NCBI RefSeq assembly: GCF_010731815.2
Contig: NZ_AP022593.1
Coordinates: 5,828,001 to 5,892,000, forward strand
Reading direction: 5' to 3'
Length of the DNA stretch: 64,000 nt
DNA from: Mycolicibacterium arabiense
GTDB lineage: Bacteria; Actinomycetota; Actinomycetes; Mycobacteriales; Mycobacteriaceae
Both the position numbers and the translations under genes were made by a program. Positions 11,688-14,347 of the stretch are shown here, piece after piece (positions within the stretch are counted from its first letter, which is position 1; the number at the start of each line of letters is the position of its first letter). Under the pieces are notes generated by a model. It saw nothing but the letters and a program-made list of their open reading frames with translations. It was not told where the DNA came from and did no database searches.

Positions 11688-13814
11688 GTGACGCCCCGCG
11701 AGACGAACGCTGCCTCGTCGTCGGTACGAAGCAGCAACCCCGTACGCAGCAACATCAACGTGCCGCCGGACCTGGTCGTGGGCCTACTCGGCTCTGCCGA
11801 CGAGAACCTGCGTGCGCTGGAGGGCCTGCTCACCGCTGACGTGCATGCGCGCGGCAATGCGCTCACGCTCTCGGGTGAGCCCGCCGACGTCGCCCTCGCC
11901 GAACGTGCCCTGACCGAACTCATGGCCGTGGTGTCGAGCGGTCAGACCCTGACCCCCGACGCGGTTCGTCACACGGTGTCGATGCTGATGGGGTCGGGCT
12001 CCGAATCGCCTGCCGACGTCCTGACGCTGGACATCCTGTCGCGGCGTGGCAAGACGATCCGCCCCAAGACGCTGAACCAGAAGCACTACGTCGACGCGAT
12101 CGACAAGCACACCATCGTGTTCGGCATCGGCCCCGCCGGTACGGGCAAGACGTACCTCGCGATGGCGAAGGCGGTCAGCGCGCTGCAGAGCAAGCAGGTC
12201 TCGCGCATCATCCTGACCCGGCCCGCCGTGGAAGCCGGTGAGCGCCTTGGCTTTCTGCCCGGGACCCTGAGCGAGAAGATCGACCCGTATCTGCGGCCGC
12301 TCTACGACGCACTGCACGACATGATGGACGCCGAACTCATCCCGAAGCTGATGAGCACGGGCGTGATCGAGGTTGCGCCGCTGGCGTACATGCGGGGTCG
12401 GGCGCAGCCGTTGTCGACGCGGGTGCTGACGCCCACCGGTTACCGGCCGATCGGCGACCTCCGGGTCGGAGACTTCGTCATCGGGTCGGACGGGCGGCCG
12501 ACCAAGGTCCAGGGTGTCTATCCCCAGGGCTTCAAGGACATCTACCGGGTCACCACCCAGGACGGCTCGTCGACGCTGGCGTCCGGCGACCACCTGTGGT
12601 CCGTCTACACCCGTTCCGACCGGCGCCGCGGAAAGCCGGCACGGGTCCTCGAGACCAAGGAGATGATCGGCAATCTGCGCGCGGCGCACTATCACCGCTA
12701 CGAATTGCCGCTTCTCAACGCGCCGGTCGAGTTTCCCGCGCACTCCGTGCCACTCGATCCTTACGCCCTGGGACTGCTCCTCGGTGACGGGTGCATCACG
12801 TGCACCACGACGCCGAGTTTCGCCACCACCGATCCGGAGTTGGCGGCGGAGTTCGAGCGGGTCGTGCCGGGCATCGTCGTCCGACGGAAGTCCGACGTCG
12901 ACTACGTACTGAACCGCGTGACCACGCCCGGTGAGGTGATCACTCAGGTGAATCCAGTCACCGGTGCCCTGCGGCGGCTGGGACTGGCCGGCACGCGGTC
13001 GAGTGACAAGTTCGTTCCGAAGGACTATCTGCTCAACTCCGCGGACGTACGGCTGGCGGTACTGCAGGGCCTGCTGGACACCGACGGCGGGCCGGTCACC
13101 CAGACGGGACGCAGCTGCCGGATCCAGTACACGACGGTCTCGGATCAGCTGCGCGACGACGTCGTGTTCCTGGTGCAGTCGCTGGGCGGGGTCGCATACA
13201 GCCGTACCCGCGTTGCAGAGGGCCGGAAGCCCGGTCTGGCCAGGGGACGCGAGATTCCCTACCGGCACGACGCGCACGTCGTCGACATCCGACTCCCGGG
13301 GGGCGTCGTTCCCTTCCGGCTCGCGCGCAAGGCCGCCAAGTACGACGAGTGTGGTGGCGGCCAGCCGAAACGGTACGTCGAATCGATCGAACAAGCCGGC
13401 ACCGAGGAAGCGGTGTGCATCCGGGTCGCTGCAGCAGACTCGCTCTACGTCACCGAGGACTTCCTGCTCACGCACAACACCCTCAACGACGCCTTCGTGG
13501 TGCTCGACGAGGCGCAGAACACCACTGCCGAGCAGATGAAGATGTTCTTGACCCGCTTGGGATTTGGGTCGAAGATCGTCGTCACGGGTGACACCACCCA
13601 GATCGACCTGCCCGGCGGCGCCCGCTCGGGTCTACGGGCCGCGGTCGACATCCTCGACGGCATCAGCGACATCCACATCGCCGAACTCACCAGCGCCGAC
13701 GTCGTGCGACACCGCCTGGTGGCCGAGATCGTGGACGCCTATGCCAGGCACGAAGACTCGGGTGCGCTGAACCGTTCCCAGCGCCGGGCGAATGCGGGCA
13801 GGCCGCGCCGGTGA
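11688..13814 (+). CDS. phoH: PhoH-family ATPase (PhoH1) precursor interrupted by an intein
   Basis: PhoH-like P-loop ATPase; in this gene neighbourhood (with ybeY) it is generally linked to RNA metabolism, though the exact role is uncertain. The 708-aa precursor contains a 359-aa intein at residues 239-597; the spliced extein is 349 residues, close to M. tuberculosis PhoH1. Extein motifs: Walker A GPAGTGKT at ~150, then [16 protein letters not shown], ending YMRGR at the insertion point; after the intein [14 protein letters not shown] (Walker B) and [11 protein letters not shown]. The intein sits directly before the Walker B strand, so the protein should be inactive until splicing. The GTG start follows a short gap after rsmE; the stop overlaps the ybeY start by 4 nt. 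Confidence 0.95.
12402..13478 (+). mobile_element. PhoH intein with LAGLIDADG homing endonuclease, class 3 type
   Basis: In-frame protein-splicing element of 359 residues (precursor residues 239-597) between YMRGR and TLNDAF. It begins with Ala ([17 protein letters not shown]), so the usual Cys/Ser at position 1 is absent. Block B reads LASGDHLW with Trp two residues after the His; block F reads EAVCIRV with a Cys; the end is LLTHN followed by extein Thr. This Trp-Cys-Thr set is the signature of class 3 inteins, in which the block F Cys is the first nucleophile. Two LAGLIDADG-type motifs (LGLLLGDG at ~365 and [10 protein letters not shown] at ~463) indicate a complete homing endonuclease. The frame is open throughout, so it is likely active for splicing. 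Confidence 0.92.
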
Positions 13815-14347
13815 GCATCGAGGTATCGAACGAATCCGGGCTGGACGTCTCGGAGACCGAGCTGATCAGCGTCGCCAAGTTCGTCATCGAGCGGATGGAC
13901 GTCAACCCCGCCGCCGAGTTGTCGATGGTGCTGCTCGACACGGCCGCGATGGCCGACCTGCACATGCGGTGGATGGACCTGCCCGGTCCGACCGACGTCA
14001 TGAGCTTCCCGATGGACGAACTGGAACCCGGCGGACGGCCCGACGCCCCCGAACCGGGACCGTCCATGCTCGGCGACATCGTGCTGTGCCCCGAGTTCGC
14101 CGCCAAACAGGCCGAGACGGCGGGGCATTCGCTCGGCCAGGAACTCGCGCTGCTGACCGTGCACGGCGTGCTGCACCTGTTGGGCTACGACCACGCCGAA
14201 CCCGATGAGGAGAAGGAGATGTTCGCCTTGCAACGCGAACTGCTCGAGGAGTGGGTCGCCGCCCAGGTCGACGAATATCACCGGGAACGGCAGACCGAAC
14301 GCGACCGAAGGCTGCTCGACGAGTCGCGCTTCTACGATCAATCGTGA
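13811..14347 (+). CDS. ybeY: Endoribonuclease / rRNA maturation factor YbeY
   Basis: Metal-dependent RNase for 16S rRNA 3' processing and ribosome quality control. 178 residues with the zinc motif [11 protein letters not shown] (three histidines) at ~117-127 and the conserved segment [11 protein letters not shown]. The GTG start overlaps the phoH stop (GTGA). The C-terminal ~25 residues after the zinc site are charged and variable, as is common in actinobacterial versions. It is translationally coupled to phoH and to the downstream CorC-like gene. Confidence 0.95.

Follow-up and report, generated by a model that had tools for sequence, protein, structure and literature searches.

Class 3 inteins carry a characteristic WCT set of residues at block positions B12, F4, and G5 (PMC5050341, PMC6195587, PMC7664689), and the residue that follows the intein (+1) is Ser or Thr, or Cys in one case (PMC5222942). 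The DnaB intein of M. smegmatis is described there as having Trp67, Cys118, and Thr137 as its WCT residues and as ending in His138-Asn139 (PMC6195587). Inteins of this class have already been published in PhoH, which the first-pass annotation did not mention, and the one considered here is not a discovery. Two of them, OBK00716 from M. fortuitum and EID13626 from M. xenopi, are aligned as class 3 in PMC6195587 (Fig. 6a), and one PhoH intein is listed for M. smegmatis (PMC7360933). By these descriptions, all three resemble the present intein in both their host protein and their class 3 features. In a search of the largely open-access literature, no title or opening of an abstract among those listed dealt with how a PhoH intein splices or what it does.

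We analyzed a 64,000-nucleotide stretch of DNA (the window) from Mycolicibacterium arabiense. The intein that it contains is itself ordinary. What is new is a survey of occupied and empty phoH alleles, an empty sister allele, a footprint at the junctions, and corrections concerning the WCT set and redox control.

The phoH insert and its relatives

The open reading frame at 11688-13814 encodes a PhoH precursor of 708 aa, with the following features.

11688..12401, + strand: phoH N-extein, 238 aa, with a GTG start and ending in MRGR (translation, Pfam, match to 3b85)
12129-12152, + strand: Walker A motif GPAGTGKT in the N-extein
12402..13478, + strand: predicted class 3 intein running from Ala1 to Asn359, 359 aa (translation, alignment, AF2 model, Foldseek)
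12591..12599, + strand: block B His64-Leu65-Trp66, with W66 as the W of WCT
12735..13334, + strand: LAGLIDADG homing-endonuclease region, aa 112-311, borders drawn by eye (Pfam, alignment, Foldseek)
12786-12788, + strand: D129 of a LAGLIDADG motif
13083-13085, + strand: D228 of a LAGLIDADG motif
13416..13418, + strand: block F Cys339, predicted first nucleophile and the C of WCT
13470..13478, + strand: block G Thr357-His358-Asn359, with T357 as the T of WCT
13479..13811, + strand: phoH C-extein, 111 aa (translation, match to 3b85)
13479-13481, + strand: +1 Thr, the first C-extein residue
13494-13511, + strand: Walker B motif FVVLDE in the C-extein
13811..14347, + strand: ybeY, a neighbor outside the intein that overlaps the end of phoH by 4 nt (open reading frame list, Pfam)

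The borders assigned to the intein in the first-pass annotation proved exact, with 359 residues in translation between two PhoH halves, and its placement just before Walker B was likewise borne out. On the solved PhoH 3b85, the N-extein covers residues 4-119 and the C-extein residues 120-207, and thus nothing is lost or duplicated where they join. Splicing might plausibly turn on the PhoH ATPase. By Pfam, the genes around phoH encode HrcA, DnaJ, an RNA methyltransferase (presumably RsmE-like), and YbeY. The insert and its host gene are alike in base composition (GC 0.67 for both; GC3 0.85 for the insert versus 0.87 and 0.88).

Pfam detects PhoH (1.4e-89) and LAGLIDADG_3 (1.1e-10) in the precursor, and the insert gives a weak Hint-type signal beside the clear LAGLIDADG_3 signal; TIGR01445 scores below its cut-off on the intein. 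At E <= 0.001 the insert is matched by at least 5621 sequences, out of 7994 candidates scored, which is far beyond chance, and a PhoH domain is present in all 120 among the matches listed. The AF2 model of the intein alone is good (pLDDT 86.6, pTM 0.89), and that of the whole precursor has low confidence (pLDDT 46.7, pTM 0.27). Foldseek searches with the intein model returned PI-SceI first (TMq 0.69), and also I-DmoI and DnaB inteins of class 3 from M. chimaera and M. smegmatis; among these, 6bs8 superimposes at 1.2-1.3 Å rmsd over 69 columns. PI-SceI, the VMA intein, is a class 1 intein that resembles the model in its Hint plus LAGLIDADG architecture, but it shares only 14-17% identity with the PhoH intein.

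For comparison, we assembled 96 PhoH inteins (87 distinct and 9 repeats), of which 37 come from genomes of the same genus and 59 from named genomes. The residues H64, W66, C339, T357, H358, and N359 are each present in 96/96. Position 1 offers no nucleophile in the present intein, where it is Ala; across the set, 94 of the 96 inteins have Ala and the other 2 have Ser. The Trp lies two residues past the block B His (B12), and the +1 Thr conforms to the class 3 rule for this position. The assignment to class 3 made in the first-pass annotation therefore agrees with the translation, in which Ala1, His64, Trp66, and Cys339 are all found. Its statement that the Thr of WCT is the first extein residue was wrong, given that this Thr is T357 at block position G5. 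The first extein residue is also Thr but occupies a separate position, G8, and the class 3 call survives because T357 is present.

The class 3 mini-inteins DnaBi1 of M. smegmatis and DnaB-1 of M. chimaera (6bs8, 6rix) are described as sharing the block B His and Trp, the block F Cys, and the block G Thr-His-Asn, and the modeled PhoH intein is predicted to have the same Hint fold. DnaBi1 is described as differing in having Ser at +1, a lost endonuclease, and a Cys48 partner, whereas the PhoH intein has Thr at +1, a full endonuclease, and no partner Cys.

Both LAGLIDADG motifs are intact, as had been claimed. Based on these motifs, we take D129 and D228 to be the catalytic Asp residues; they are kept in 88/96 and 93/96 PhoH inteins, respectively. 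Lengths reach at least 350 aa in 82/96 and are reduced to 261-347 aa in the other 14, all of which keep the six splicing residues. Among the 82 long inteins (73 distinct), median NG86 dN/dS over 553 overlapping pairs with dS of 0.05-0.9 is 0.21 for the endonuclease and 0.11 for the splicing domain. The endonuclease is thus constrained, and it is probably in use across much of the family. The suggestion that the element may still be mobile is supported, mobility being probable. The intein is real, intact, and probably mobile, and it belongs to a published family.

The best identity to this intein among genome loci is 81%, in M. kyorinense. A metagenomic protein, P0003, is the closest among the matches listed, at 95%. 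P0003 and the PhoH precursor differ at 1/349 extein residues and at 17/359 intein residues, which indicates that the intein evolves much faster than its host protein. A contig titled MAG: Maritimibacter sp. (L044) carries a PhoH intein identical to that of Gordonia tangerina (L076) and is likely misbinned. An intein relative with 66% identity lies at NZ_LT559118.1:3201455-3202525 of Nonomuraea gerenzanensis, where no gene is listed; the record is 11.85 Mb long and comes from a plasmid collection.

Phages also carry relatives of the intein: 794 phage records match it, all at less than 60% identity. The first-listed, at 44%, is a gene of phage Phrappuccino that one record annotates as DarB-like antirestriction and a second as terminase. 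One of five pattern matches in viral contigs encodes an intein relative, at 34% identity; this contig (L092:328-3105) has a related intein between GK and T of Walker A in a protein that looks terminase-like by eye. Two phage genes named PhoH, from GX15bay (L093:1529-4351) and Eggerthella phage LE2-3 (L094:2219-3838), were considered as a source and rejected. They hold an intein of similar type, but Pfam shows intein or endonuclease domains only and no PhoH domain, and the name was probably carried over from similarity to PhoH inteins. No phage donor at the PhoH site was found in the phage records or viral contigs searched.

Occupied and empty phoH alleles

Among 297 genomes of the same genus, phoH is occupied in 32 and empty in 257, with no call for 8 in which the gene either sits at the edge of a contig or could not be located. 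An allele was called empty when a joined-extein query read straight across the insertion site. A wider, overlapping draw of genomes yielded 44/396 occupied, and the 37 of these 44 that had loci were used. The intein is inserted at MRGR|T in 37/37 of these loci and in 59/59 named loci, including those of Mycobacterium, Mycolicibacterium, Nocardia, Gordonia, Rhodococcus, Skermania, Lentzea, Kutzneria, and Streptomyces. This common insertion site is established for the loci fetched here, and the three published PhoH inteins were compared by description.

To relate occupancy to descent, an extein tree was built from 289 rows (37 occupied), with the ten codons that flank the site to the left and to the right excluded. 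Empty rows were dropped when unreadable by the site pattern (L113, L293) or too short for the tree (L292, L328, L329, L395), and the empty relative L231 (genome G330) was added. Intein presence requires at least 29 state changes on this tree, compared with a mean of 35.3 and a minimum of 32 in 300 label shuffles. Moreover, for 22 of the 37 occupied alleles the nearest extein is that of an empty allele, nearer than any other occupied one. The intein is therefore spread almost at random over species. The tree of the inteins themselves keeps genera mostly together, and much of their inheritance may therefore be vertical or local. On that tree, the M. arabiense intein forms a deep branch of its own, with weak support, within the mycobacterial group.

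The first-pass annotation had called for a comparison of phoH alleles with and without the intein, and a suitable empty allele exists. The four genomes nearest in N-extein DNA among the 396 (G256, G330, G196, and G252) are all empty, and the last three carry Ser, Thr, and Ser at +1, respectively. The sister genome G256 is collinear over 20 kb with 94-95% DNA identity and lacks the intein. Its PhoH differs from the spliced product predicted here at only 2/349 residues: M222V and, on the +1 residue, T239S.

The junction footprint and the +1 residue

Comparison of occupied with empty alleles revealed an altered tract on both sides of the insertion site.

12387..12401, + strand: left half of the footprint, the last five N-extein codons, which differ between occupied and empty alleles
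13479..13493, + strand: right half of the footprint, the first five C-extein codons, beginning ACC CTC here and TCG TTG in the empty sister

The junction reads CGG|ACC CTC in M. arabiense and CGC|TCG TTG in G256; in this region 7 of 13 nt are changed, against a usual rate of about 5%. When each occupied allele was paired with its nearest empty allele (extein distance < 0.08; 13 pairs), the two five-codon flanks differed at 51% and 54% of their codons, compared with 25% and 26% in 81 empty-empty pairs at distances of 0.02 to 0.08 and with 20% of junction codons in six occupied-occupied pairs. With pairs that are independent and matched for divergence (11 versus 51), 5.27 of the 10 junction codons differ where 2.99 are expected (p = 0.0002). 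The effect holds without the +1 codon and at distance limits from 0.08 to 0.16, and is borderline at a limit of 0.06, which leaves 4 pairs (p = 0.05, or 0.07 without the +1 codon). It is absent from the next ten codons on each side. Because the changes are nearly all synonymous (62/68 in the 13 pairs), selection on splicing is a poor explanation, and short conversion tracts would fit. We thus read the footprint as a putative scar of conversion.

The footprint holds 33 nucleotides that look derived in the occupied allele, 29 that look derived in the empty allele, and 9 that could be either (3, 3, and 1 in the pair formed with G256), such that gain of the intein by conversion is not separable from its loss by conversion. 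Donor-like bases show no enrichment in the footprint (32:22 inside versus 99:69 outside, p = 1).

The +1 codon belongs to this tract. Thr occupies +1 in 37/37 occupied same-genus alleles, compared with 173 Thr and 82 Ser in 255 empty alleles, an association with a Fisher p of 2.5e-6 when kinship is ignored. With relatedness controlled, about 3.4 of 21 independent pairs agree and 0 oppose, and the association loses significance (median p of 0.25). Seven of the 37 occupied alleles are nearest to a Ser allele yet carry Thr. A similar pattern was attributed to co-conversion for the haloarchaeal MCM-d intein, whose invaded alleles always have Ser at +1 and whose empty alleles mostly do not (PMC10643990). 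That system resembles the PhoH alleles in that every invaded allele has a suitable +1 residue. It differs in being archaeal and in involving a change from Pro to Ser, whereas the PhoH site concerns Ser and Thr, hosts a class 3 intein, and is already Thr in most empty alleles.

Taken together, these features make it very probable that the insert at MRGR|T is a class 3 intein of full length that includes a LAGLIDADG homing endonuclease. The splicing chemistry that we propose is that described for class 3 DnaB inteins, extended to PhoH by inference. Cys339 would attack the Arg238-Ala bond, the N-extein would then be handed to the +1 Thr, and Asn359 would cyclize with the aid of His358 to yield a 349-aa PhoH. 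At the DNA level, the endonuclease would cleave phoH copies that lack the intein, and these copies would acquire it during repair. Such homing would fit the patchy presence among near relatives. It would also fit the confinement of altered codons to a short stretch around the junction; in the nearest pair this stretch takes in the +1 codon, which encodes Thr in the occupied allele and Ser in the empty one. The sequence, the homology, the empty sister allele, and the footprint are observed, and splicing, cutting, and the direction of transfer are inferred.

Alternative histories and functions

Perhaps the intein is moving among present-day mycobacteria, with each move rewriting about five codons per side and installing the +1 Thr over a recipient Ser, although we advance this only tentatively. 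If so, the intein would bring its own catalytic residue upon invasion. A different history, which we consider unlikely but weightier than the other alternatives, is that an ancient, vertically inherited mycobacterial intein has often been lost by recombination with empty alleles, in which case the endonuclease would be a relic and the footprint would record how the empty alleles lost the intein. The grouping of genera on the intein tree is in keeping with this history, as are the weak phylogenetic signal of presence (29 changes, below the shuffled minimum), the nearly balanced polarity of the footprint, and the 14 shortened inteins. It accords poorly with the 22 occupied alleles that are nearest to an empty one, with the four empty genomes closest to M. 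arabiense, and with an endonuclease whose Asp residues are mostly kept and whose dN/dS is well below 1.

Another idea is that the intein acts as an adaptive switch, whereby a block F Cys that is oxidized or bound by zinc would keep PhoH unspliced during stress, in the manner described for DnaBi1. The PhoH intein has the catalytic Cys, and H2O2, zinc, and reactive chlorine are reported to inhibit DnaB inteins of class 3 (PMC6195587, PMC7360933, PMC8557812). DnaBi1, however, is described as being switched by a Cys48-Cys118 disulfide (PMC6195587), and Cys48 of 6bs8 aligns with Ile47 of the PhoH intein. No Cys occurs in this column in the 96 PhoH inteins (Ile in 92, Val in 4), and Cys317, the nearest Cys to Cys339 in sequence, is found in 1/96. 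Furthermore, most genomes of the genus lack the intein, and only two residues separate the PhoH of the sister genome from the one here. The redox control previously argued from the block F Cys is therefore unsupported, and we view an adaptive switch as improbable. Oxidation or metal binding at the active-site Cys itself is possible, and lacking the partner, any sensitivity of the PhoH intein to redox or zinc would require direct action on Cys339.

The same genome encodes, outside the window, a DnaB precursor (L002:784-2604, contig C2) with a class 3 mini-intein of about 143 aa that has no endonuclease, sits at Walker A GK|S, and carries a Cys48-type cysteine. The redox contrast thus exists within one cell, and the absent partner in PhoH offers a clean contrast to a DnaB intein of the redox-sensitive type. 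As a separate observation, block B positions 60-61 of the PhoH inteins are CC in 27, CS in 15, AC in 5, and SC in 1 of the 96, and are Ala-Ser in the present intein and 47 others. The Cys-rich forms occur among Streptomyces, Lentzea, Gordonia, and others, and could possibly differ in redox behavior.

Lastly, a dying intein that no longer splices and leaves the strain devoid of PhoH might account for the many intein changes relative to P0003 (17/359, against 1/349 in the extein), but this is very improbable because the splicing residues and reading frame are all intact and because an extein only 2/349 residues from the empty sister, despite a DNA difference of about 4%, indicates that PhoH is still under constraint.

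If the intein is indeed moving among mycobacteria, then sister strains that differ by its presence would constitute a natural test pair. The sister alleles, identical at 347/349 residues, together with the genus-wide footprint make class 3 homing in mycobacteria directly testable. The same material offers a test of the length of conversion tracts and of whether Thr rather than Ser is needed at +1.
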